DNA of 18,759 nt from contig JAJYGE010000128.1 of the NCBI GenBank assembly GCA_021785155.1, positions 1-18,759 of the forward strand, given 5' to 3'. This document shows, piece by piece, positions 4,939 to 16,360 of the stretch (the first letter of the stretch is position 1; every line of letters starts with the position of its first letter). This DNA comes from Planctomycetota bacterium (GTDB lineage: Bacteria; Planctomycetota; Phycisphaerae; WQYP01). Under the pieces are notes generated by a model that searched no databases, was not told the origin of the DNA, and worked only from the letters and a program-made list of their open reading frames with translations. The translations under genes were made by a program, and so were the position numbers.

Positions 4939-6234
4939 TCATGCCTCCGGGGCCAGTTCATCCAGACTTTCCACCTTTTGGCGATGATAGGTTCCGCGCA
5001 CCACCCAATATGCGCCCAGCAGGTTCCAACTTATTGGCAGGAAACGTATGGCCTGCGCCAAGGCGAAAGCCTGACTGGCCGTGTCCACCCCGCGCGTAAC
5101 GAAAAAGTGCAGCAGAATGGCATCCATAACACCAATACCCTGGGGCGGCACAATCGGCAGACTCGCCGCCAGAGCCGCCACCGGAATATAGGCCATAAAA
5201 CAGCCGAAGGACGCATGCATGCCGAAAGCCCGTCCCGCCAGAAAGCCGGCGACAGGCAAAACCGCCTGGGATATGACACTGGCCGTCAAAGTCATGGCGA
5301 CCACACCCGGATGCTCGCGATAGACCCGCAACGTACGATCAGCGTGTTTTACAAATTCCGGCAACGGCAGGCGTTCAATCAGGGCGTCAAGATGAAAAAC
5401 TTTCCGCAAGCGCGTTGAAAAATAGACCAATCCGCCCACAAGCGTAAGTCCCAGCAGCCCACCGATAAGCCACAGCACATGTACCAGCACCGGATCGGAA
5501 ACATTTTTACCGGATGGGGAATAATGATTCACCGTCAGTTGCACCGCCGCCGCCACACCAGCCACCATCATTAAGCCGATTAATCCGATGACCCGATCCA
5601 GAATAACCGTCACAGCGCTTTTGGTCTTTTGGCCGGTGATGCGGCCCGTGTAAATAATTTTGACAATATCCCCGCTGGTGGTGCCGGGAAGAAAGGTGGA
5701 ATAAAATTGTCCGACAAATGTTAGCGTCAGACATCGGCCATAAGGCAGATTCATGTCCTGCACCAGCATGAGTTGCCGCCAGCGCCACGCGGTAATGAAA
5801 AACGGCAGCCCCAGCAGCAGCAATGCCGCCAGAAGCGGCAGTGGTTTAGCCCGACGCAGCAGATGTGGCAGCCCCAGCGCCACCGATGGTTGGCCATGCG
5901 CCTCCTGCAGATAATTGCCCGGAACCGCCAGCAAATCCGGAAAATCAATCGGAGCTTTGGTAGCCACGGCGGTTATCAACTGTCCATGGGGCAGGCGCAC
6001 CGATATTTTTTGATGCTGAAATTTCAGCGTATATAAATTGTCGTGATGGGCCAGCAGGGTCAGCCGCGTGTTATGCACAAAGGTAACATTGCGGATGATC
6101 TGCCCTTTTTTGATGATCGCCTGATCATTCCACGCGATATGGGAAATCACATACCAAAGCCCCACCACCGCAATCAGAAGTTTGATCAGGGTAATGACAA
6201 TTTTTCGGATGGGGTGCGATTTTGTCGGTGTCAT
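4939..6234 (-). CDS. YbhN/LPG-synthase-TM (flippase-like) integral membrane protein
   Basis: Polytopic inner-membrane protein of 431 aa from the family that includes the transmembrane part of lysylphosphatidylglycerol synthase and YbhN. Members are often annotated as flippase-like and linked to lipid or polyprenyl-glycan transport. Family hallmarks seen: WRWRQLM (150-156), FLPGTTSGDIVKI (181-193), LDRVIGL (212-218) and PPQGIGVMDA (362-371). One membrane segment lies near the N-terminus (about 12-31), then a soluble loop of about 100 residues, predicted extracytoplasmic, that is longer than in simple members, then the main membrane bundle from about 130. It starts 30 bp after the pyrE stop and is probably cotranscribed with it; no functional link is evident. 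The ribosome site before the ATG is weak (GGATCGC). The transported molecule is unknown. Confidence 0.85.
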   Translation of the reverse strand: MTPTKSHPIRKIVITLIKLLIAVVGLWYVISHIAWNDQAIIKKGQIIRNVTFVHNTRLTLLAHHDNLYTLKFQHQKISVRLPHGQLITAVATKAPIDFPDLLAVPGNYLQEAHGQPSVALGLPHLLRRAKPLPLLAALLLLGLPFFITAWRWRQLMLVQDMNLPYGRCLTLTFVGQFYSTFLPGTTSGDIVKIIYTGRITGQKTKSAVTVILDRVIGLIGLMMVAGVAAAVQLTVNHYSPSGKNVSDPVLVHVLWLIGGLLGLTLVGGLVYFSTRLRKVFHLDALIERLPLPEFVKHADRTLRVYREHPGVVAMTLTASVISQAVLPVAGFLAGRAFGMHASFGCFMAYIPVAALAASLPIVPPQGIGVMDAILLHFFVTRGVDTASQAFALAQAIRFLPISWNLLGAYWVVRGTYHRQKVESLDELAPEA

Positions 6235-6264
6235 GCGATCCAGTCATTCATACGCGGTTGAAGG

Positions 6265-6786
6265 TCAAATCCCCAGATCCTGCCGGGTTAAAATCGATTC
6301 AAACATAAAACCCGCGGATTCAATGTTTTCCCGCGCGCCTTCCTGGCGATCTATGACCGCAATTATTTTTTCCACCTGGGCCCCGGCGGCAGTTATGACC
6401 TTGGCCGCTTCCAGTACCTGCCCGCCGGTGGTGGCGATATCCTCAACCAGCAGCACGGTATCACCGGCTAGAAGGGCACCTTCAATGAGTTTGCCGGTGC
6501 CGTAATCTTTTTTGGAATTTCGCACGATAAAAAATGGCAATCCCGCCGCCAGTGACGCCGCAGCGGCCAACGCCACGCCCCCCAGCTCCGCCCCCGCAAG
6601 GCGCGTGGTCAACGGGGAACGCGCCGCAGCCATGCGGGCACCTAGGGCCGCAAGAATGTCCGGCTGTGTTTCAAAGAGATATTTATCCATGTAATATTTG
6701 GATTTTCTGCCCGAGCGCAGTGTAAAATCACCTTCCAGATAGGCAACTTCTTTGATTCGGGCGGCCAATTGTGATTTATCGAGCAT
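6265..6786 (-). CDS. pyrE: Orotate phosphoribosyltransferase
   Basis: Cytoplasmic enzyme of de novo pyrimidine synthesis that joins orotate to PRPP to give OMP. The 173-aa length is normal for the short bacterial form. The PRPP-binding motif VLLVEDIATTGG is at 111-122, the mobile catalytic loop RNSKKDYGTGKLIEG at 89-103, and an FTLRSGRKS start at 21-29 is typical. The family usually has His-Gly in the loop; here it is Tyr-Gly (KDYGTG). The start is set by AAGGAG 8 nt before the ATG. It is the first gene of a probable two-gene unit with the membrane protein downstream. No other pyrimidine gene is in the window. Confidence 0.95.
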   Translation of the reverse strand: MLDKSQLAARIKEVAYLEGDFTLRSGRKSKYYMDKYLFETQPDILAALGARMAAARSPLTTRLAGAELGGVALAAAASLAAGLPFFIVRNSKKDYGTGKLIEGALLAGDTVLLVEDIATTGGQVLEAAKVITAAGAQVEKIIAVIDRQEGARENIESAGFMFESILTRQDLGI

Positions 6787-6818
6787 TATAAAAACTCCTT
6801 AAATAACATTGGTGGCGA

Positions 6819-6824
6819 ATTATA
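6819..6824 (-). promoter_or_regulatory. Probable -10 box of the pyrE promoter
   Basis: On the minus strand TATAAT (plus-strand ATTATA) lies about 32 nt before the pyrE ATG. No good -35 box is visible at 16-18 nt; that position is overlapped by a repeated 16-bp site described separately, so an activator could replace a -35. This is a composition-based call. Confidence 0.45.
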
Positions 6825-6832
6825 GCGATTTT

Positions 6833-7372: not shown

Positions 7373-7741
7373 TAAGGTCAAGGGAGTGACCGGGAGCGTT
7401 ATGGGCTGATTTGGCCTGTGACATCTCAAGAAAAAGCGTGTTGATAATCAAAGTCGGGGGTCGTTGCGTCATGTTTACCGTGTACGCGGTAAATCATGAA
7501 GATCGCATCTCATGGCAAGATGGCGCGGCCAATAGCCTGTTCAGGTATTGGTCGGTAGTGCCATTCGCCGCACGAGGGCCCTGCTCCACCCGTAATGACC
7601 GATGGAACAGGGCACTAGCACCGAGCTGGCGATTGGATTATTCCAATCGGAGGCGCGGTGGACGATGCGGATAATTTTGCCCGCCGGGGTCTCATGTTGT
7701 GATTCTCCGGGTGAAGATGATTTCTGGGAGGTTTGACAGCG
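7373..7741 (+). promoter_or_regulatory. Long structured leader upstream of the sigma-like gene
   Basis: No convincing coding sequence lies between the promoter and the sigma-like gene. Several stems can form in the predicted transcript: GGTCA-AGGGAG-TGACC right at the 5' end (7376-7391); TTTACCG...CGGTAAA, extended by ATG/CAT around one bulged base (7471-7497); GCCCTGCTCC...GGAACAGGGC with one mismatch (7578-7613); and the GATTGGA palindrome (7631-7648). The last 70 bp are a diverged version of the leader found before the anchored-protein genes. It matches no riboswitch class I can name. Confidence 0.45.
7631..7648 (+). promoter_or_regulatory. Inverted repeat GATTGGA-N4-TCCAATC, copy 1
   Basis: A perfect 7-bp palindrome with a TTAT centre, 93 nt before the sigma-like start. 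The core TTGGA-N4-TCCAA recurs before proteins A and C at a similar distance. It may be an operator or an RNA stem. Confidence 0.5.
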
Positions 7742-8242
7742 ATGTTGGCGCGTATGAATGCGGTGAAGCGGTGCCTGACGCGGGCCCGGCGCTGGAAAGC
7801 GCCCCCCAATTGGTCGCGGCACCAGTGGTTGGAGGAGGTGGCGGCTCAGGCGGAATTGGCGGCAGCGGTTGAGTTTCCGATGGCCGGCAAACCGTCTGCG
7901 GTGCCTGTAAACGCCAACACGTTCGAAAGCCGAATTCTCAATGACGTATTAAAGCGCTATCGTCAGGAATGTTCGTTTTGCTGGCATTGTGGGCGGCGTT
8001 TGACTGGTGAGCCGGCTGAAGAAGCGGAAAATCTGGACGATGCCGTCGGCCCGATGGTGCTGCGGCTGGCGGGCGCTGTGGCGCAGCTTGCGGAACCGAA
8101 CCGGCGGCTGATTAAACTGCTGTATTGGCAGCACCGCACCGAATCGGAGGTGGCCGCGGATTTTGGCGTCAGCCAGCAGGCGATCAACAAACGCAAGCGG
8201 CGGATTTTTGCGCAGCTTGCCGATGTCCTGAAAAAAGGGTAA
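7742..8242 (+). CDS. Planctomycete-type small sigma-70-like regulator (region 4)
   Basis: Probable RNA polymerase sigma or sigma-like factor of 166 aa. The C-terminal 50 residues form a clear region-4 helix-turn-helix (about 115-165, with EVAADFGVSQQAINKRKRRI), which would contact a -35 element. The N-terminal part has RARRWKAPPNWSRHQWLEE (14-32) and KRYRQECSF (71-79), a pattern I associate with planctomycete sigma-like proteins that have a poorly conserved region 2. A CWHC pair (80-83) sits between the two halves. The ATG at 7742 is chosen because GGGAGG lies 10 nt upstream; a TTG at 7733 is too close to that site. The gene follows a long structured leader and precedes four anchored secreted proteins on the same strand, two or three of which share parts of its leader. 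Control of those genes is inference. Confidence 0.7.
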   Translation: MLARMNAVKRCLTRARRWKAPPNWSRHQWLEEVAAQAELAAAVEFPMAGKPSAVPVNANTFESRILNDVLKRYRQECSFCWHCGRRLTGEPAEEAENLDDAVGPMVLRLAGAVAQLAEPNRRLIKLLYWQHRTESEVAADFGVSQQAINKRKRRIFAQLADVLKKG

Positions 8243-8251
8243 CGATTCATT

Positions 8252-8323
8252 ACAGGTGGCCGACAACCTGTGGTACAGATTTTCTTGCCTGCGTTCATTA
8301 CCACCGCAGACTGGAAAGTCTGC
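8252..8323 (+). repeat. Two small palindromic repeats of a dispersed type
   Basis: ACAGGT-N8-ACCTGT (8252-8271) and GCAGACT-GGAA-AGTCTGC (8306-8323), a 7-bp stem with a GGAA tetraloop, each followed by a similar tail (GGTACA, ACTACA). Palindromes of this form are, from memory, common between genes in planctomycete and verrucomicrobial genomes and often cause false ORF calls. One of them may end transcription of the sigma-like gene. Confidence 0.5.
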
Positions 8324-8342
8324 ACTACAAAAGACAACCATG

Positions 8343-8413
8343 CGGTAGAGGCCCGATGAAAAAGGTATTCTGCCCTTTGGCCGGTTGTAAAAATCGGCCA
8401 CCATGAAATTATA
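8343..8413 (+). repeat. 71-bp intergenic repeat, copy 1
   Basis: Starts CGGTAGAGGCCCGA and ends AATTATA; copy 2 is at 9473-9544 after gene A. Both contain the stem GGCCGGTT-GTAAA-AATCGGCC (here 8379-8399; 8 bp with one G-T pair). The copies differ at a handful of bases but keep the stem. It lies downstream of a gene in both cases, so it may work as a transcription end or processing site. Confidence 0.6.
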
Positions 8414-8553
8414 TTATCAGGGGGAACCAGCGGCGGCGAAAATCTACCGCCCACTGGTCGCAAATCAGCGAGCAGAATTGCTGCCCTGCCGCAGTGTGTT
8501 GCGTGGAGCGAGGTAGGAAGTAATCAACGGTGGGGCAGAGGCCGCTTTGGCAG

Positions 8554-8567
8554 TTGGATTGTTCCAA
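8554..8567 (+). promoter_or_regulatory. Inverted repeat TTGGA-N4-TCCAA, copy 2
   Basis: Perfect 5-bp palindrome with a TTGT centre inside the shared leader, 112 nt before the start of gene A. Same core as the sites at 7631-7648 and 10714-10727. Confidence 0.5.
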
Positions 8568-8625
8568 ATCGGGCGGCATGTGGGGGCAGATGGTGAAATT
8601 GGGGTTTGATTTCACCCGCAGAGAG

Positions 8626-8645
8626 TTCCATGTCGGAATCCTCCG
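8626..8645 (+). promoter_or_regulatory. Alternative hairpin pair in the leader of gene A
   Basis: TTCC-ATGTC-GGAA (8626-8638) and CGGA-ATCC-TCCG (8634-8645) share the CGGA strand, so only one can form at a time. The same two stems exist with compensating base changes before genes C and D. They end 21 nt before the AAGGAG ribosome site. Confidence 0.5.
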
Positions 8646-8679
8646 GGAGAACAGGTTTGCTTTTATAAGGAGTGTTTTT

Positions 8680-9411
8680 ATGAAAGGGACCTTGGGAAAA
8701 ATTGGTTTCGGCCTGGCGGGGATAGTGGCCTGCGCCAGCGTGATGTCCGCCGGTGTGCAGACGGCAGTCGCCCTCCCATACCCTGCACAGATCGATATCA
8801 ACCTGGCGCACGGCCCGAATGGTGTTACGCCAGACGGGAATTGGGGAACCGATGTTAACGAAGGAACGTACGTTGAGTACCCGGTGTGGAATAATATCAT
8901 AGGTGGTGGAACGCTCGACGACTTGGTTGACACGAATGGCGTAAGCTCTCCCATATCTGTCACCGTATCGGCGGACACCTCCGGCGGCTACACGGGATCT
9001 TCCAACCCTATGTTGTACAGCTACCTCGGGTGGGACGATACCGAAACCGTGACCATTAGCGGCATCGCACAACAGGATGATCTATACAACATATTTGTAT
9101 ACAACTATGGGGGTGGATCAGTCAACTCTGGCGACGGAGGCGCTACCGCTGAGATAACCACGCCCGGCGACCCGAATGATGGCCACACCTCCTTTTCCGG
9201 TGTCACACCAGAGGGATCCTCGTCCCTGATGTTTTTGCTGGCCCGCCCTAACAGTTCAGGCGTAATTTCATTCACCGTTACGGGGCCGGGTGCCATTCTC
9301 AACGGCATACAATTGGCACAACCCGTGCCCGGACCGGGCACGTTGGGAATACTCGCCGCCGGTGGGATGGCTCTGTTTTTGGCGGTGCGCAGACACAACC
9401 TGTCAGCGTAA
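8680..9411 (+). CDS. Secreted protein A with VPGPG-type PEP-CTERM-like anchor
   Basis: Exported protein of 243 aa. Residues 1-31 are a signal peptide (MKGTLGKIGFGLAG, then a hydrophobic core, cleavage likely after AVA). The body is rich in Gly, Ser, Thr and Asp and looks like an extracellular beta-sandwich (DLYNIFVYNYGGG, ILNGIQLAQ). The last 29 residues (PVPGPGTLGILAAGG, then a membrane segment and RRH) match the layout of PEP-CTERM sorting tails: short Pro motif, hydrophobic helix, basic end. Here PGP replaces the usual PEP. Such tails are processed by an exosortase in known systems; none is in the window. The start is fixed by AAGGAG 7 nt before the ATG. Its function is unknown; cell-surface or matrix protein is the reasonable guess. 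Confidence 0.75.
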   Translation: MKGTLGKIGFGLAGIVACASVMSAGVQTAVALPYPAQIDINLAHGPNGVTPDGNWGTDVNEGTYVEYPVWNNIIGGGTLDDLVDTNGVSSPISVTVSADTSGGYTGSSNPMLYSYLGWDDTETVTISGIAQQDDLYNIFVYNYGGGSVNSGDGGATAEITTPGDPNDGHTSFSGVTPEGSSSLMFLLARPNSSGVISFTVTGPGAILNGIQLAQPVPGPGTLGILAAGGMALFLAVRRHNLSA

Positions 9412-9472
9412 CCGTTAAATTTGCCGTTTTACGAAAAATTCGTGAGGGCATTGCCTTCAACCGGCAACCGCA

Positions 9473-9544
9473 CGGTAGAGGCCCGACGAAAAAGGGTAAT
9501 TTGCTCTTTGGCCGGTTGTAAAAATCGGCCACCCTGCAATTATA
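9473..9544 (+). repeat. 72-bp intergenic repeat, copy 2
   Basis: Second copy of the element at 8343-8413, placed 61 bp after the stop of gene A. The stem GGCCGGTT-GTAAA-AATCGGCC is at 9510-9530. The rest of the gap to gene B (9545-9718) has a loose inverted repeat CAGAGA/TCTCTG (9574-9598) and no recognised promoter. Confidence 0.6.
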
Positions 9545-9718
9545 AAGAGTAAGGTATTTTGCGCGGATGCGTTCAGAGAGAGCTGAATCGGTTCTCTGAT
9601 CGATTTATCCGGGTATTGAGATTTGATAATTTATGCCGCCGCAGCCGTGGGTAGTATTTGCCCATGGTCGGCGGGAGAAGTTATTTCAGCGGTTGTTCTT
9701 TTTTTGGAGGTATTGGCC

Positions 9719-10546
9719 ATGAAGATCAGGATGATGCCTGGAAATAAAATGGCGGTGGTTGCCTCTGCGGTGGCCGCGATGATCTGTGGCCTTGGCGCAG
9801 CGCAGGCACAAGTTCTCAATTTTGACATTAACGGAACCAGCACTGCGGGAGTGCAGGGGAGCAACACTTATGTCGGCCCTGGCGCGATGCCCGCTTTCCC
9901 AATTGTTTCCGGATCAGCGCTTTACTATTGGAATCCGGTTAACCTGACCAACAATGCCACCGGCGCGACGATCAATTCCATTTCGGATTCCGCCGGAAAC
10001 CTGGCGTCCGGCGTATCATTCACCTTGGGAAATCTTGACGGGTCATCCAACGGAACCGCCTCCCCGAACGTTACGGACGTCAGGACGATGTTGAATGACT
10101 GGTCGCAGGGCGGATACAACAACCCTGCCTCCACCCCACCGATAACTCCCGCGACGTTTACCTTCAGCGGTCTAAAGCCCAATACCGGGTATACCCTTGA
10201 TCTTTACAGTATCAACGGCGGAGCCGGTGACAATGGTGCCACCACCTTCGCCATTGGTTCGAACTTCCAGACGGCCACCAATACCAGTCCATTGGACGAC
10301 AGTCAATTTATTCTCAACGATAATTACGTTACGTTCAGCGGCAACACCGGTGCGACCGGCGTGATAGCGGGTATGTTCTATGCTACCAACCCCCACACCG
10401 TCGGCTACCTTGACGGGGCGCAGTTGAGCGCTGTGCCCGCCTCCACGCCCGAACCCGCCGCCCTGGCCTTGATGGGCATTGGCGGCGCGGCGTTGCTCTT
10501 GATTCGCCGGAAGCGACATGGCTTGCCGCCAGCGAGAACGGCATGA
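9719..10546 (+). CDS. Secreted protein B with canonical PEP-CTERM anchor
   Basis: Exported protein of 275 aa. The signal peptide covers about 1-27, with cleavage likely after AAQA. The body is a Gly/Asn/Thr-rich beta-sandwich with FSGLKPNTGYTLDLYSINGG, a pattern seen in other anchored planctomycete proteins, and GYLDGAQLSAV before the anchor. The C-terminus has STPEPAALALMGIGG, a hydrophobic helix and IRRKRHG, a standard PEP-CTERM sorting signal. TGGAGG lies 8 nt before the ATG at 9719; the frame is open further upstream but has no better start. Unlike A, C and D this gene does not carry the shared leader or the shared signal-peptide type, although it sits between A and C. The ligand or role is unknown. 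Confidence 0.8.
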   Translation: MKIRMMPGNKMAVVASAVAAMICGLGAAQAQVLNFDINGTSTAGVQGSNTYVGPGAMPAFPIVSGSALYYWNPVNLTNNATGATINSISDSAGNLASGVSFTLGNLDGSSNGTASPNVTDVRTMLNDWSQGGYNNPASTPPITPATFTFSGLKPNTGYTLDLYSINGGAGDNGATTFAIGSNFQTATNTSPLDDSQFILNDNYVTFSGNTGATGVIAGMFYATNPHTVGYLDGAQLSAVPASTPEPAALALMGIGGAALLLIRRKRHGLPPARTA

Positions 10547-10600
10547 GTGCGTATAGATTATTCGCAATCCGTGTTGCGGCGGCGAAAATCCAATGATCAT

Positions 10601-10642
10601 TGCTCACTGATCACGGGCCACAGCATCACGGATCAGTGAGCA
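10601..10642 (+). terminator. 12-bp perfect inverted repeat after gene B
   Basis: TGCTCACTGATC (10601-10612) and GATCAGTGAGCA (10631-10642) pair perfectly around an 18-nt loop, 55 bp after the stop of gene B. There is no T-run, so a simple intrinsic terminator is not shown; it may be a 3'-end hairpin or a protein site. Confidence 0.35.
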
Positions 10643-10713
10643 GAATTGTTGGGCTGCCGCAAGGGTTGCGTGGAGTGACATAATCAACGGCGAGGCAGGG
10701 GCCGTTTTGGCAG

Positions 10714-10727
10714 TTGGATTGTTCCAA
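10714..10727 (+). promoter_or_regulatory. Inverted repeat TTGGA-N4-TCCAA, copy 3
   Basis: Identical core to 8554-8567, including the TTGT centre, 111 nt before the start of gene C. Confidence 0.5.
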
Positions 10728-10784
10728 TTCGGGCGTAGCGTTGGGGCAGATGGTGACATTCAGGTTCGATTCCCCCGTAGAGAG

Positions 10785-10803
10785 TCTCTTGTCGGGATTC
10801 CCG
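10785..10803 (+). promoter_or_regulatory. Alternative hairpin pair in the leader of gene C
   Basis: TCTC-TTGTC-GGGA (10785-10797, one T-G pair) and CGGG-ATT-CCCG (10793-10803) share the CGGG strand. Compared with gene A the shared base changed from A to G, and the partner base changed in both stems. Confidence 0.5.
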
Positions 10804-10838
10804 GGAGGAAGAAATTTTCTTCTATAAGGAGTGTTTTT

Positions 10839-11732
10839 ATGAACACGAAAAACAATTCCAGTATCGGTGGCGTCGGCCTCATGGCCGGGGCCTTGGCATG
10901 TGCGGGGCTGCTGTCGGCGGGGGTGGCACCAGCGATGGCGTCGGTTGCGCTCGATGGCAGCAGCGGCTGGCAAGAATATTATAACCCGACATCAGCAGTG
11001 AATTATAGCCAACAGGATTCATCACTTATCACGTACAGCAACAACGCCGTTATTGCGGGGATACCCACCTCAAGCAATGGCGGTAACGGGTCGGCGGGGT
11101 ATTACGCTTACGCAAGCGGTGCCGGTGCTTATGCAGCACCTTTTACCACTGCAGCGATACTTACGACGGGAGTCACGTTTACCAGTCTAGTGGATCAAAC
11201 CTTAAGCGCTACGTTTACCCTTAACGACAGCGCCCTCTCCACGGGTGCGAGCTTCACTCAGGCTGATTTGGTTGGTGTTGCTAACCCCAACAATACCGCT
11301 ACCGATCCACAGATCCGCCTCTTTTTCCAAGGATCCGGCAGCTACAACATGTGGTGGTCCGATACAGCGGTGGAATATGTAACTAGTATGAAGAATGGCG
11401 TGAGCGTCACAATCTCGCAAACGTTCGTGGGCAGAGGAGCTAACGCTGAAAATTGGAGCAATCTTAACGGCCAGTTGGGGACTCAAGACGCCACCGCCTT
11501 CAACGCCGCGATCAGCGCACCGATCAGCGTTGGGCTGTCTCTCGGGACGGGAAATTTCTACATGGACGGATTCGGTTTCAAGACCGGTGGCACTGCAAGC
11601 CTGACCCTAACATCTTTTACGGGGACAACGGCAACCCCCATCCCCGGCTCCGGCCTTTTAGCCGCCGTTGGCTCATTGGCGCTGATTGGCGGCTTGGCGC
11701 TGCGCAAGCGGCTGGCGGCGAAACTTCGGTGA
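10839..11732 (+). CDS. Secreted protein C with PIPGSG-type C-terminal anchor
   Basis: Exported protein of 297 aa. The signal peptide (about 1-34) ends near SAGVAPAMA. The body is Ser/Thr/Asn/Gly-rich and predicted beta-rich, with QIRLFFQGSGSYNMWWSD and ENWSNLNGQLG; I recognise the style from planctomycete anchored proteins but no named domain. The tail (265-297) is TPIPGSGLLAAVGSLALIGG followed by LALRKRLAAKLR: Pro-rich motif, helix, basic end, with PGS in place of PEP. The last codons and the bases around the stop are nearly identical to those of gene D. The start is fixed by AAGGAG 7 nt before the ATG in the shared leader. Function unknown. Confidence 0.75.
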   Translation: MNTKNNSSIGGVGLMAGALACAGLLSAGVAPAMASVALDGSSGWQEYYNPTSAVNYSQQDSSLITYSNNAVIAGIPTSSNGGNGSAGYYAYASGAGAYAAPFTTAAILTTGVTFTSLVDQTLSATFTLNDSALSTGASFTQADLVGVANPNNTATDPQIRLFFQGSGSYNMWWSDTAVEYVTSMKNGVSVTISQTFVGRGANAENWSNLNGQLGTQDATAFNAAISAPISVGLSLGTGNFYMDGFGFKTGGTASLTLTSFTGTTATPIPGSGLLAAVGSLALIGGLALRKRLAAKLR

Positions 11733-11746
11733 TCTGCGATTATGGG

Positions 11747-11781
11747 CGCGGCTGACGGGAGGATGTTTCCCGTCAGCCGCG
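11747..11781 (+). terminator. 14-bp perfect hairpin between genes C and D
   Basis: CGCGGCTGACGGGA (11747-11760) and TCCCGTCAGCCGCG (11768-11781) pair perfectly around the 7-nt loop GGATGTT, 15 bp after the stop of gene C and 70 bp before gene D. It has terminator-like strength but no T-run after it. It may separate the two genes or protect the 3' end of the C message. Confidence 0.5.
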
Positions 11782-11782
11782 A

Positions 11783-11850
11783 ACTCCCGCAGAGGGTCCC
11801 GTGTCGGGATTCCCCGGAGGAAGAGGTTTTCTTTTATAAGGAGTGTTTTT
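11783..11850 (+). repeat. Shared leader element, short copy before gene D
   Basis: Only the last 70 bp of the leader are present; the upstream half with TTGGA-N4-TCCAA is absent. The hairpin pair is TCCC-GTGTC-GGGA (11797-11809) and CGGG-ATTC-CCCG (11805-11816). The ending TATAAGGAGTGTTTTTATGA is identical to genes A and C. Confidence 0.7.
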
Positions 11851-12513
11851 ATGAGGAATGCCTTTGGAAAAATTAGTCTTGGCCTAGCCGGGGCCGTGGC
11901 CTGCGCCAGCTTGATGTCTGCGGGTGTGCGGACGGCAAACGCGCAGATTGTTCTAACCCAAACCAGCCCGGTTGAGACATTTGGCGGCATGGTTGGGAGC
12001 CGGCAGACCTATGACTTCACATATTACATGGATGTTGGTGCGGCTAACGAAAGCGAGACGCTTGGGAGCGGAGCCTACGTTAGCCTGACACTTGATGGCT
12101 CGCTTTCCGAGTTGGCCATAGTGCCAAGCTTAACCGTCACCAACCCGAATAATTTTGTGACATTCGGGAGTCCGAGCGACGGCAGCACGGACGGCGCAAC
12201 CTACAGATGGGATTACACTGGTTCGCCCCTCAATTTGAACGCAGTGGAGCCGCTCGGCTACATCACCTTGGTTTCGGACACTCAAAACGCCCTCACACCC
12301 AAGGACAACGTGCCACCAGGTAACTTTGAAACGAAGACGGCAACCAACACGGATTACGTCTCTGAGGATGTGGCTGTGCCCGATAGTAGCGGTACGCCTC
12401 TTGCGGCTCTCGACCTGCCCGCTGCAGTTTGGCCGGGGCTTTTGACCCTGGCCGGGATCACCGTGATTGGCGGCTTGAGGCTGCGCCGGCGGCTGGCAGC
12501 GAAGCTTCGGTGA
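11851..12513 (+). CDS. Secreted protein D with LPAAVWPG-type C-terminal anchor
   Basis: Exported protein of 220 aa. The signal peptide (MRNAFGKISLGLAGAVACAS, cleavage likely after TANA) is very close to that of protein A (MKGTLGKIGFGLAGIVACAS). The body shows no similarity to A, B or C that I can see; it is predicted beta-rich (QTYDFTYYMDVGAANESE, LVSDTQNALTPKD) and may bind another surface component. The tail reads ALDLPAAVWPGLLTLAGITV, then a helix and LRLRRRLAAKLR. LPAAVWPG differs from the PEP motif and may mark a different sorting class, while the terminal basic segment matches protein C. The start is fixed by AAGGAG 7 nt before the ATG. Function unknown. Confidence 0.7.
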   Translation: MRNAFGKISLGLAGAVACASLMSAGVRTANAQIVLTQTSPVETFGGMVGSRQTYDFTYYMDVGAANESETLGSGAYVSLTLDGSLSELAIVPSLTVTNPNNFVTFGSPSDGSTDGATYRWDYTGSPLNLNAVEPLGYITLVSDTQNALTPKDNVPPGNFETKTATNTDYVSEDVAVPDSSGTPLAALDLPAAVWPGLLTLAGITVIGGLRLRRRLAAKLR

Positions 12514-12944
12514 TCACAGGATCACGGATCAATGACCAGAATTGACACACCGTTCATGGGCAGGCGGTTCTACTCAACGCGGCCTCCGGCGAGACATTTA
12601 TACCAGGCACGGTCCCGCGTGCCGCTGGCATAGCTTTGCAGCGATATAACGGCATCAGGGATGATGCCTACTACCATCTCGCCGCTGATAATTAAAGATA
12701 TTTTTGAATAGATCACCAATGTCCGCGCCGAGCATAACAGGTTGTGGTGGATCTCGGCGCGGGGGGATTATCCGCATTTGCTACCGCGGCAGACAAGAAA
12801 AGCTACATCACAATCAAGGCAACGGGATAAAGCTCGCCTGTAAATGGTTACCTGTTTCTGCAACATCCACATTTGCTTCTTGCTCTGGATTTTTCGCGGC
12901 GGCTACAGAGTTCGTAATTGCTTCGCGGGACGGATCGGGCCGTG
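12514..12944. other. Gene-free region with three consecutive hairpins
   Basis: No gene recognised on either strand. It starts with a fragment of the shared leader (about 12521-12544). Three inverted repeats follow: CCA/GGCACG...CGTGCC/TGG with a 2-nt bulge (12603-12628), GGCATCA-GGGA-TGATGCC (12651-12668), and CCGCGCCGAG...CTCGGCGCGG with a 20-nt loop (12723-12762). It lies between the convergent ends of gene D and the toxin/antitoxin unit, so one or more may be terminators; a small RNA is also possible. Confidence 0.4.
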
Positions 12945-13133
12945 TCATGAAGGCATCGACCGCCTCACTGCGGAATGGCGCTTTTTCCATTTCGCAGGGT
13001 CCACCACGCGGCTTTTGTCCGGCTGATGCAATTTCCGCTGTCTTTCCGCCATCTCTTCCGCGCTGCCATGGCATTGCTTCCATAACCGCTCGCGAATTCG
13101 GTGTATCTCAGCAACTAACGGGTCCGTTGGCAT
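12945..13133 (-). CDS. Antitoxin-like partner of the PIN-domain toxin
   Basis: Small protein of 62 aa that begins PTDPLVAEIHRIRERLW, a pattern I associate with short proteins encoded next to PIN-domain toxins of this type. The N-terminal half is predicted helical and would wrap or block the toxin; the C-terminal half is basic (KWKKRHSAVRRS) and could bind nucleic acid. GGAGG sits 7 nt before the ATG at 13133, inside the end of the toxin gene. The ATG comes 2 nt after the toxin stop, so translation is probably coupled. No DNA-binding fold such as AbrB or RHH is evident. It could instead be a mere companion without antitoxin activity. Confidence 0.6.
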   Translation of the reverse strand: MPTDPLVAEIHRIRERLWKQCHGSAEEMAERQRKLHQPDKSRVVDPAKWKKRHSAVRRSMPS

Positions 13134-13135
13134 GG

Positions 13136-13609
13136 TCAATCCTCCAAAAGAGAATCTGGGGTTACAATTGTGGGCAGAAAAAATGCCCCTTCGTTCGCTA
13201 AATCCCGGAGCCGTCGCAAGACATTCGGATTAGCGATATGGGTACAGTTCCAAGTTACGAGAAAATCAACCTCGTAAGCGATGCAATAGGCAATATGGTA
13301 AATGTCCGCCAGTGCCTTTTTGGGAAGCCCCAGGCTTTCCGTCAGGTCAATAACCCGCCCCAGAACCTCTGCCGTCACCGGCAAGATGCGAAGGGTGCGG
13401 GCCGCCGCACGCCGCAGCTTTACGGCCTCCGGATCGCCCTGCGCCATTTCATCCTGAACCATCGGTGAGATCAATAGATCAAAGCGATCCGCTGCGATTT
13501 CCCACCACAGGCGGGTGACCTGTTGATGCGCGGCTACGACCAAATCCCGGCTGTTCCGGCTCGTGAGGTAACTTATTACACTCGTTTCGACATATACCGT
13601 AGGCTTCAT
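13136..13609 (-). CDS. PIN-domain ribonuclease toxin (VapC-like)
   Basis: Predicted Mg-dependent RNase of 157 aa, the toxin of a type II system. It starts KPTVYVETSVISYLTSR, where Glu stands at the first acidic position (many VapC proteins have Asp). ADIYHIAYCI and VDFLVTWNCTHIANP supply the later acidic and Asn/His-containing segments typical of this PIN group. The frame stays open to 13792, but the upstream part overlaps a Cys-rich gene and shows no PIN similarity, so I start at ATG 13609 (GGA 6 nt upstream); ATG 13618 is also possible. The toxin precedes its putative antitoxin, the reverse of most VapBC pairs. Its target RNA cannot be told from sequence. Confidence 0.75.
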   Translation of the reverse strand: MKPTVYVETSVISYLTSRNSRDLVVAAHQQVTRLWWEIAADRFDLLISPMVQDEMAQGDPEAVKLRRAAARTLRILPVTAEVLGRVIDLTESLGLPKKALADIYHIAYCIAYEVDFLVTWNCTHIANPNVLRRLRDLANEGAFFLPTIVTPDSLLED

Positions 13610-14145: not shown

Positions 14146-14700
14146 CTATCCTATTTCAACCGTGGCGCGCGGATCACAGCCACCGGTGCGGGTATATGTG
14201 CCGCTGAAACCCGGACCCGTGGTTTTACTGCCCTGCCAGACAATTTCGCCACTGTCCGGACCATTCTGTCCGGTGATCTGCATAAAAAATGTTTTGTTGG
14301 TGCCGTTGTACCAGACACTGGAAATACCGGGCGGCTGGAATTCCCACATCCGCTTGCCATTGAAGCTGCAATCAAAACAGCCGTTGCCGGCAAAACAGTA
14401 GCGGTTGGAATAGGCACAGTTTTGCGGATAAAAAAAGTCAAATATGCCATCCCAGACACAATCACCCGCCACGGCGGCGGTGGCGTCAGCGCAGGGAGTG
14501 AAATAGCTATCGGTGTAATTGAGAATCGCCAGGCTGCTGGGAGCGTTGATGCATGGATCGCTGTAACCCGATGAGCCACAACAGCACGGCTGATCGGCCG
14601 CTTGCAACACCACACTACCGGCGGTTCCGGGACTGCCTTCCCCGGGTTTGGCCAAAACAGCCTGGCCGACGGAGTTAAGTTGTAAAAGATTGCCGGACAT
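14146..14700 (-). CDS. Cysteine-rich protein of unknown function, possible phage-like structural protein
   Basis: Protein of 184 aa with eleven cysteines (39-41, 50, 70, 81, 95, 102, 108, 111, 175), aromatic residues and Gly/Asn turns. It has no signal peptide. The C-terminal SGTYTRTGGCDPRATVEI is a motif I have the impression of seeing in planctomycete hypothetical proteins. GGAG lies 5 nt before the ATG. It follows the 240-aa gene after 131 bp on the same strand; that gap shows no gene. The order of unrelated, moderate-size, beta-rich proteins in one direction resembles a phage tail or decoration-protein operon, but no capsid, portal or terminase gene is present to confirm it. Disulfides would suggest an extracellular or particle-surface place. 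Confidence 0.6.
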   Translation of the reverse strand: MSGNLLQLNSVGQAVLAKPGEGSPGTAGSVVLQAADQPCCCGSSGYSDPCINAPSSLAILNYTDSYFTPCADATAAVAGDCVWDGIFDFFYPQNCAYSNRYCFAGNGCFDCSFNGKRMWEFQPPGISSVWYNGTNKTFFMQITGQNGPDSGEIVWQGSKTTGPGFSGTYTRTGGCDPRATVEIG

Positions 14701-14831
14701 GGGTCTCCGCGGGATTCAGGAGTTAGAATAATGTGCCTGCGGCACCGTATTGAGCCATCAGCGGCCACAGCCGTCACTTGTCCATCTTGCCACCTTCCGA
14801 CTCCCCGGTTTCCCAACGCGGCGAACCAGCG

Positions 14832-15554
14832 TCAAGTACACGCGGTGGTGTTTTGAACTTCTCCGGCATCCCACAACCGCAGTATTCCGGTGGCATCCAC
14901 AAAGGCCGTTCCAAAAGCGGGTAACGCGGTTTGGGGCAACATGGAACCATTGGGCCGGGGGCGGGCCAACGACAGTTGTGTGCCCCAGGTCATCAGACCA
15001 TCTATGGACGTTACAGTATATGTCCATGTGGCCGGCGCGGTTTGTGTGCCGTCGGCTCCGCCATCTTTGCTGATGCCCACGGGAAACATCACCGCTCCGA
15101 CGGAGCTGATCAGCACAATCAGTCGCGGCGGAGATTCATCGGTCAGGCCGGCTTTCAGCCCGATATGAAAACTTCCCGTGCTCAAAGCGTGGCCGGTGCC
15201 ACTTTCCGCCAGGTTAAGTATCAGAGCGTTATTATTGGCGGAATCGCGCAGACCTTCCGGCAGGTTAAGATTGGCACCCGCTGTGGCCGTGGAATTGCCG
15301 GAAAATAAATGTCCCGCATATTTTCCGCCCCCGGTTTCCAGTGCCGTTACATGGACCACCACCATGCAATAGCCAACCGCGCGGCCGCGCGGGGCGATGG
15401 CGGCACCGGCGCGGTTGACGCGATGCGTGTTGAGCCCCTCCGCCGTAATCAGTGACGAATCGGTATTGACCTGATCCACAATGCCATTGATCTGCCGGGC
15501 AATGGTTTGCCAGGGTTCATGTTGCGCGGACCAATGCGGCAGTGCGGGTTGCAT
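14832..15554 (-). CDS. Unrecognised protein, middle gene of the phage-like operon
   Basis: Protein of 240 aa without signal peptide or membrane segment. The N-terminus (PWQTIARQINGIVDQVN) is predicted helical and could oligomerise; the remainder is Gly/Thr/Ala-rich and predicted beta, with GKYAGHLFSGNSTATAGANL and AFGTAFVDATGILRLWDAGE near the end. I cannot assign a family. GGGAAG stands 6 nt before the ATG, and only 14 bp separate it from the stop of the preceding 263-aa gene, so the two are surely cotranscribed. A helical N-terminus plus beta-rich body would fit a fibre, baseplate or decoration protein; this is a guess from shape and context only. Confidence 0.6.
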   Translation of the reverse strand: MQPALPHWSAQHEPWQTIARQINGIVDQVNTDSSLITAEGLNTHRVNRAGAAIAPRGRAVGYCMVVVHVTALETGGGKYAGHLFSGNSTATAGANLNLPEGLRDSANNNALILNLAESGTGHALSTGSFHIGLKAGLTDESPPRLIVLISSVGAVMFPVGISKDGGADGTQTAPATWTYTVTSIDGLMTWGTQLSLARPRPNGSMLPQTALPAFGTAFVDATGILRLWDAGEVQNTTACT

Positions 15555-15568
15555 GGCAAACTTCCCAT

Positions 15569-16360
15569 TCAGTTAATCAGCGGAAACGCGGTGTTAAAAT
15601 CGGTTTGACCGAACACAATAAAGCGGCCCCAGCCATTGCCGCTATAGGTGGAACCGTCAGTGACAATGGTTCCGGCAATGTCCGGTGGAATGGATCCATC
15701 GACATTTTTGAATACGGCATATTGATCCCAGGTTTCCGGGTTATAGGCGAAGGAATACGTATTGCGATACCACACGCCATCCTGCGTACTGCCGGTGATC
15801 GGCAGACACAGCCACGTCCGGGGCGGATAATTGCGCCAGGTAACGCTGTTGACCAGGCCGGCGTAGGAAAGCGTCAGCAGTTCTGGATCCGCGGTTTGCA
15901 GAAAGTGAAAGCTGATGGTGGCGTTAAGAATCAGGCGGTGTAAATCCGCAACTTCGCTTTGCGCGCTTCCACCGGTGGGCGTATAGGTAACGGTGGCAAG
16001 ATTGTTATTGGCGTCATAATGCCGCAGAACCTGCACCAAGCCGGCGTTAAAACTTTTGAGGTAATTGGTGGGGTAGGCGTCCCACTGGTATTCGCATGAC
16101 ACATCGAAGCAATCATAACCCTGACAGTGGGTTTTGATGTTTCGCACCACCGCATTGGGTTGATCCGGATGTTGAACGCCAATGGCGGGAATCACAAAGC
16201 CGGTGACGGAATCCGTGGCCGTAGCGGCCATGATAGGCCGCTGGGTGGGGGAATATTCCGATAAGCCCGTGACCTGAAATTTACGGATAATGTGATAGCC
16301 GGTGGCGGACCATTCCAGGGGTTGAGATAAAAGCAGGTCTTCTTTAATGCTTATTGCCAT
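15569..16360 (-). CDS. Unrecognised protein, first gene of the phage-like operon
   Basis: Protein of 263 aa, no signal peptide, predicted mixed beta. Notable segments are KTHCQGYDCFDVSCEYQW (about 95-112, three cysteines), WRNYPPRTWLCLPITG and VWYRNTYSFAYNPETWDQ (about 200-225), the last being of a kind I have seen in phage virion-associated hypothetical proteins. No ribosome site is obvious before the ATG at 16360, but no better start lies downstream in the long uninterrupted frame. It heads a same-direction set of four unknown genes followed by a toxin/antitoxin pair. The reading as a virion, tailocin or other particle component is inference; a host-specific protein is equally possible. Confidence 0.6.
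   Translation of the reverse strand: MAISIKEDLLLSQPLEWSATGYHIIRKFQVTGLSEYSPTQRPIMAATATDSVTGFVIPAIGVQHPDQPNAVVRNIKTHCQGYDCFDVSCEYQWDAYPTNYLKSFNAGLVQVLRHYDANNNLATVTYTPTGGSAQSEVADLHRLILNATISFHFLQTADPELLTLSYAGLVNSVTWRNYPPRTWLCLPITGSTQDGVWYRNTYSFAYNPETWDQYAVFKNVDGSIPPDIAGTIVTDGSTYSGNGWGRFIVFGQTDFNTAFPLIN

Follow-up and report, generated by a model that had tools for sequence, protein, structure and literature searches.

Similar ends on unlike bodies: leader-linked genes for candidate exosortase-type surface proteins in a planctomycete

In the sap system of Campylobacter fetus and the slp system of Lactobacillus, one conserved 5' region serves exchangeable bodies. The present work concerns a window of 18,759 nt (the whole of contig JAJYGE010000128.1, assembly GCA_021785155.1) from a planctomycete, in which the genes A, C and D encode predicted surface proteins preceded by a common leader, and a fourth gene, B, lies between A and C without it. 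The best described proteins of similar build are those of the PEP-CTERM/exosortase system, whose bodies are diverse and whose tails form lineage-specific clades, according to Haft et al. (2006; PMC1569441). In that account PEP-CTERM proteins evolve faster than almost any other set in their genomes and have middles that resemble no other protein; it also describes a conserved upstream site of sigma-54 type that, among the species surveyed there, occurs only in Proteobacteria. This proteobacterial sigma-54/PrsR cis-site consists of two 17-nt motifs, the second of the -24/-12 type (PMC1569441).

We give a probability of roughly two in three to the following reading: the proteins are exosortase-type surface proteins, and their ends have been exchanged or homogenized by recombination independently of the bodies and are tied to the regulon of the leader. 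Sequence comparison shows separate histories for leader, signal peptide, tail and body: relatives put like heads on unrelated bodies and one body behind different heads. An earlier note on this DNA had proposed a single expression and secretion module with swapped bodies; the mosaics of head, body and tail in relatives agree with the swapping, but the separate histories of leader, signal and tail do not agree with one module. The genes and leaders in question are the following.

7633..7744, + strand: leader-like stretch of the sigma-type gene; inverted repeat CGATTGGAttatTCCAATCG at about 7633, hairpin core, model match at 7670-7752
7742..8242, + strand: sigma-70 region-4 type regulator gene, 166 aa from the ATG at 7742 (PF04545)
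8486..8679, + strand: A leader; palindrome at 8554-8567, hairpin, ribosome-binding stretch TATAAGGAGTGTTTTT
8680..9411, + strand: gene A, 243 aa; D-type signal (8680-8772), probable PEP-CTERM-type body, anchor VPGPGTLGILAAGGMALFLAVRRH
9719..10546, + strand: gene B, 275 aa, PEP-CTERM protein without leader (PF07589, TIGR02595)
10650..10838, + strand: C leader; palindrome at 10714-10727, hairpin, ribosome-binding stretch
10839..11732, + strand: gene C, 297 aa; head 10839-10940, body of type T1, tail TPIPGSGLLAAVGSLALIGGLALRKRLAAKLR (within 11622-11729)
11786..11850, + strand: short leader of D; hairpin and ribosome-binding stretch, without the TTGGATT palindrome
11851..12513, + strand: gene D, 220 aa; D-family signal and body (T7), C-type last codons (12464-12513)

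The DNA upstream of C (10650-10765) matches that of A (8486-8600) at 79% over 115 nt (E 3e-22), and the match runs on to the ATG, reaching about 190 bp in total (direct repeats D1-D3). Over 65 nt plus the ATG, ungapped identity is 78% for A/C, 85% for A/D and 88% for C/D, the closest leader pair in the window; as a control, A against 2000 shuffles of C gave a mean of 26% and a maximum of 49%. The likeness of A and D spans the leader and continues into signal DNA (157 nt at 80%). A leader common to the three genes had been noted earlier; the 190 bp of A/C and the 65 bp of all three bear this out, but not the length of about 250 bp then given for A/C, since at 8430-8480 the likeness is found in patches only (67-74%). 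The absence of the leader from B, also noted then, agrees with the leader model scans of the window, in which the DNA upstream of B gave no match; the supposed leader fragment after D (12515-12544) turned out to belong to a dispersed repeat of the GATCACGGATCA type. On 11 leaders, 84% of the hairpin cells are paired, against 28-55% when the structure is slid. Covariation in the hairpin was not above shuffles with six leaders (at least 134 of 500 reached the observed value) and was modest with 11, in an alignment fitted to the structure, where 7-8 of 500 shuffles reached it by two measures and 31-141 by three others. A scan of 7600-13200 with Rfam gave one match, at chance level.

The first copy outside the window was found by blastn with the C leader, before a different PEP-CTERM gene in G009:C62 (E 1e-5). 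Two covariance models, R1 from six leaders (three of the window, G010:C293 and two of G009:C62) and R2 from 11, were then run on related genomes with 150 candidates scored per genome, for R2 out of 405-1237 first-look candidates. In 22 genomes R1 marked at least seven strong places, namely three of its training set and four new ones (G014:C110, G009:C323, G013:C210 and G009:C124, 49.7-62.8 bits), the next best scoring 23.9 bits. The same places, at least seven in four of the 28 genomes of the order, were returned by R2 at E<=0.001, and all of them belong to the R2 training set. The leader thus exists beyond the window. Downstream of it are GloVer-repeat PEP-CTERM proteins in G009:C62 (both genes) and in G014 (called by model scan for G014 and one of the two G009:C62 proteins, by eye for the other), a protein with a body of type T2 in G010, in G013 a frame of 104 residues that begins like a signal peptide and lacks an anchor, and, at G009:C124 (49.7 bits), a homologue of the window's sigma-type gene. 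At G009:C323 (L236 1968-2906) a frame of 24 codons comes next, and a separate PEP-CTERM gene after that; leader and short frame may be the decayed remains of a unit borne by the leader.

The window's own sigma-type gene (7742-8242) matches region 4 in PF04545 at 28.5 bits, above the cut-off of 24.1, and the sigma-70 superfamily model TIGR02937 at 29.5 bits, under the cut-off of 42.9. Its 5' stretch has the exact palindrome TTGGATTNTTCCAA at 7633 and a marginal match to R1 (18.9 bits, E 0.027; the next, chance-level match in the window has 17.2 bits); the 54 bits given by R2 are circular, this leader being in the R2 training set. From these matches the gene seems to carry the leader too. Since a regulator gene, too, has the leader in front of it, the leader probably acts, at least in part, as an element of a regulon. 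That the sigma-type factor has a role in the system is a guess, made from its neighborhood and the shared leader.

The exact palindrome TTGGATTNTTCCAA lies 109-126 nt 5' of the start in A, C, the sigma-type gene and both G009:C62 genes, and the G010 gene has TTTGAAatgtTTCAAA at -115; the palindrome is absent from the leaders of D, G014:C110, G009:C323 and G013:C210. In G013 the palindrome, but not the rest of the leader, lies 111 nt 5' of the start of a D-family gene. Enrichment of TTGGATTNTTCCAA was considered as a leader marker (23 matches in 12 of 28 genomes, none for the reversed-pattern control) and rejected: three of the 23 precede genes of the type studied here (G009:C62 twice, G013:C288) and many others are inside conserved genes, which we take to be those of glucose-6-phosphate isomerase and the DNA polymerase III alpha subunit. 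Also rejected as a leader trace was TTATAAGGAGTG (at most one mismatch, 14 loci), whose likeness is a ribosome-site resemblance only, because eight of nine rows precede one repeated reading frame, MDKDVLKKRL. An exact 23-mer of the leader had no match in 84,980 species genomes and a 20-mer none in viral contigs, and the D leader gave short matches only by plain blastn in seven relatives.

The separate behavior of heads and bodies is seen in the relatives of C. These comprise 17 proteins (7,993 candidates scored), of which six, C included, have body T1; nine of the other 11 match over 10-26% of C. All 231 pairs of 22 proteins were compared (C, A, D, P0002, P0003, P0005-P0020 and one G006 protein), with the bodies sorted by eye into eight types and the head taken as the first 34 residues (residues 39-76 in P0007, and from a later start in P0016). 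Heads are at least 75% identical in 14 of the 203 different-type pairs, with bodies at 20-28% (types T1, T2, T4, T5 and T6); in P0005/P0015 the values for head, body and tail are 88%, 23% and 88%, and in P0013/P0018 they are 88%, 25% and 74%. Same-type pairs have heads of 62% or less in 17 of 28 cases, such as C/P0009 (head 44%, body 77%, tail 74%) and P0014/P0017 (41%, 77% and 94%), and T1 bodies are 73-86% identical between relatives with heads down to 41-47%. Related tails are found on six body types; the T3 protein P0012 has a tail 65% identical to that of C over 55 residues and a head nearer to that of D (58% over 38). P0011 and its copy in G010 have three differences in 282 residues, all within the last 17. 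An independent case of shared ends and unlike bodies is provided by two convergent genes of G006:C2 (L159 5632-6501 and 7246-8193), with T6 and T4 bodies, which are 86% identical in leader and signal over 214 bp and 77% in the tail over 52 bp; their leader sequence differs from that of the window.

The bodies of different type are at the level of shuffled sequences (mean identity 25.0%, highest 34%, shuffled mean 24.5%), and the body homology that would have spoken against the earlier proposal did not appear in these sequence comparisons. With hhalign no pair among T1-T7 exceeded a probability of 1.1%, T3 being one sequence and T2 two. The mature parts of A, C and D are as unlike as had been claimed: T1 against the A body reached 0.7%, and T1/T7 and T7/A were outside the 25 best of 55 pairs, thus below 0.3%.

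Two observations on heads were made in passing. A second head set, MENVPRG or MENAPRG...MQTGK or MQSGK, occurs in G001, G012, G013 and G014; its MQTGK part is also present in G009, and the proteins with MQTGK/MQSGK..IGAALSAGLLAA of all five genomes (L272, L276, L277, L278 and L290) have LPGSG tails. P0007 and L221 (G008:C63) have a long N-terminus with a likelier start at MLS(N/S)RSS; the extension looks like leader read-through, and the L221 leader ends in TATAAGGAGTCATTTATG.

Gene D appears to join the leader and last codons of one family to the signal and body of another. The D family has 13 genes in 12 loci of relatives, 28-50% identical to D in local matches, 12 of which start at residue 1 and thus cover the signal. 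None of the 13 genes has the leader (the upstreams of 12 are of other kinds), and none of the proteins ends in LAAKLR; P0002 ends in RRRAL and P0003 in RRRIV, both with tails of the form LPLPAAFWPGL...RLRRR and without an NCBIfam match. C and D have their last 18 codons including the stop in common, as had been reported, at 83% DNA identity over 54 nt (52 nt at 88%). Because its relatives are without the C-type leader and LAAKLR, D is apparently a member of the D family whose two ends consist of C-type DNA, and the adjacency of the two genes, together with their being the closest leader pair, points to C as the probable donor. The structure model of D (predicted local distance difference test score, pLDDT, 78) has a helix at 193-218, and a structure search with it gave weak CBM3/Ig-like matches, none at E<=0.001.

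Gene A is apparently another composite. Its signal peptide and that of D agree in 21 of 31 residues (67.7%), and the C signal is looser (46% with each); the close similarity of signals claimed earlier is thus best borne out for A/D and less so for C. The anchor of A scores 11.8 bits with TIGR02595, under the cut-off of 16, and B passes the cut-offs of both PF07589 (24.8 bits) and TIGR02595 (24.1 bits). Among 5.8 billion proteins A found only itself at E<=0.01 (1,314 candidates scored); in 61 genomes, 20 had a match at that threshold, the best with E 4e-9 over residues 121-241, and these are relatives of body and anchor. A profile built from A, L128 and L130 found L135 at 95%, L126 at 76% and, weakly, B at 33%; the signals of L128, L130, L126 and L135 differ from that of A. 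The profile matches place the A body in a PEP-CTERM body family, and A may be described as a C/D-type leader and D-type signal joined to a body of PEP-CTERM type that has an anchor of its own. A firm body homology of A and B was considered and dropped, a BLAST match without composition correction (E 6e-10) having shrunk to 3.5-6.0 bits with phmmer.

These mosaics would be explained by three exchangeable parts: the head (5' leader and signal), the body, and the tail (anchor codons and stop). Exchange may proceed by homologous recombination or gene conversion between paralogues, starting in the conserved ends; recombination would homogenize the ends, and bodies would be kept, replaced or imported. 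The leader, with its inverted repeat, hairpin and TATAAGGAGTGTTTTTATG, is a putative cis-regulatory element, because it is also found before a sigma-type gene in another genome and, with a weaker match, before that of the window. Any body placed behind it would share the expression and export of the other proteins and also their anchoring, presumably by exosortase. A tripartite end (short motif, hydrophobic helix, basic residues) is visible by eye in A, B, C and D, and exosortase (PF09721 above cut-off) is present in 26 of 28 genomes of the order. More speculatively, the structured leader (palindrome, hairpin and fixed ribosome-binding stretch), coupled to a sigma-type factor under the same control, and the anchor end might serve as landing sites for recombination that capture unrelated bodies again and again, which would be expressed, exported and anchored at once, with heads and tails homogenized within lineages; we hold this broader scheme to be doubtful.

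Several observations weigh against exchange of the ends. No exchange event was observed directly, C and D match no curated anchor model (PF07589, TIGR02595), and G001, the closest genome by PyrE (97%), has no strong leader among its 150 scored candidates. The decoupling of head and body is partial, as heads are still more alike on average in same-type than in different-type pairs (60% versus 51%). C-type heads are few (13 weak-to-strong matches in 11 of 28 genomes, two of them below E 0.01), and the D head was found on D bodies only (three of three proteins, nine candidates). The 31-aa signal of A has 12 of its 16 matches on D-family genes, two on T4/T6 bodies and two unresolved; because the matches of D head and A signal are mostly to the D family, this head is not widely shared in the genomes searched. 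P0013 and P0020 align with C over almost the full length at 32%, and the two G006:C2 proteins as a whole at 28%; these alignments (E 1e-18 or so) do not separate ends from bodies, and the bodies alone are at background, which leaves room for distant homology. The structure model of C is poor (pLDDT 47), the link between A and B is weak (profile probability 33%, phmmer 3.5-6.0 bits), and there are short metagenome contigs among the relatives, some of which may be assembly chimeras.

The alternative that comes nearest to the exchange of ends, and which we think improbable, is that A, C and D arose from one gene by tandem duplication, with ends held by selection and bodies diverged beyond recognition. 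It would account for the tandem arrangement and for the near full-length match of C to P0013/P0020; G009:C62 and G011:C152 are indeed plain tandem duplicates with shared ends and recognizable bodies, and a lineage-specific expansion of PEP-CTERM tails is described by Haft et al. (2006; PMC1569441). Rapid divergence of bodies is not universal, however: T1 bodies keep 73-86% identity with heads that fall to 41-47%. Heads of 88% on bodies at background level, and relatives of D with other upstream DNA and other last codons, also argue against it. Somewhat less probable still is that the leader is a regulatory element and nothing more, an operator or 5' untranslated region that arose or was kept independently, with the likeness of signals and tails due to sorting constraints. 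The leader before the sigma-type gene of G009:C124 and before genes with other signals would fit, as would the pairing of the hairpin on 11 leaders, but sorting constraints would hardly produce head identities of up to 88% over 34 residues on unrelated bodies, nor a likeness that runs from the leader into signal DNA, as in A/D and the G006 pair, nor tail codons of D that match those of C and not those of its own relatives. Chimeric metagenome contigs joined in the repeated ends are a very unlikely source of the pattern. Several mosaic relatives do lie on contigs of 1-5 kb, and the tail difference of P0011 could be such a join; the window proteins nevertheless recur in several contigs (D in six, C in three, A in four, the longest of 51 kb), and mosaics are also found on long ones, P0016 and the G006 pair on 40 kb, P0012 on 63 kb and P0017 on 88 kb.

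The host of the window is a Phycisphaerae-type planctomycete, with a PyrE 97% identical to that of the metagenome-assembled genome (MAG) JA4.bin8 (L001/G001), to which 4943-6832 is 80% identical in DNA. Isolate codes prompt the guess that this MAG and its neighbors are from acid mine drainage. A contig labelled as an alphaproteobacterial MAG (L044) has a Phycisphaerae-like pyrE (67%), from a mislabelled bin or by transfer. Three open reading frames on the - strand at 14146-16360 (184, 240 and 263 aa) have no Pfam match at E<=0.01. Four repeats lie among the genes:

8325..8413, + strand: direct repeat copy 1, 5' of the A leader (repeats D4, D7)
9455..9544, + strand: direct repeat copy 2, 3' of A (DNA self-comparison)
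10576..10650, + strand: dispersed intergenic repeat of GATCACGGATCA type, 5' of the C leader
12515..12544, + strand: dispersed repeat copy 3' of D, not leader

The direct repeat of 80-90 bp flanks A with its leader and includes a small palindrome, TGGCCG...CGGCCA; its copies are 87.5% identical over 80 nt (8325-8413 against 9465-9544), with no further copy at E<=0.01 in 305 sequences. The GATCACGGATCA-type intergenic repeat occurs in several genomes of the order (L151 2017-2048, L193, L197, L199 and L200); it is also found 3' of the stop of a C-like gene in G010 and is scattered in G013 and others.

Separate histories of head, body and tail suggest a testable route by which new middles are acquired, namely exchange at the conserved ends. 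Should the leader prove to be part of a regulon linked to the sigma-type gene, it would also open a way to study how exosortase substrates are regulated outside Proteobacteria. Among the papers listed on PEP-CTERM/exosortase (also for planctomycetes and Phycisphaerae), signal-peptide recombination, family expansion, shared signal peptides and domain shuffling, no title on the exchange of heads was found. The PEP-CTERM/exosortase (EpsH) system with its models TIGR02595/PF07589 resembles the window in the signal, unlike bodies, C-terminal motif, hydrophobic stretch and basic end, and further in lineage-specific tail groups, the presence of exosortase in the order and conserved upstream DNA (in Proteobacteria). 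The window differs in that C and D fall outside the anchor models, leader and signal are shared as well, and the leader is also found on a sigma-type gene. The sap and slp systems may be likened to it by analogy, in that a conserved leader and start are joined to different mature parts. No silent copies lacking the leader were seen among the open reading frames of the window that were scanned, and no invertase or recombinase among the 14 scanned with Pfam (96 mechanical reading frames in the window). In contrast to sap/slp and single-expression-site phase variation, every one of A, C and D comes with a leader, a start and an open frame of its own.

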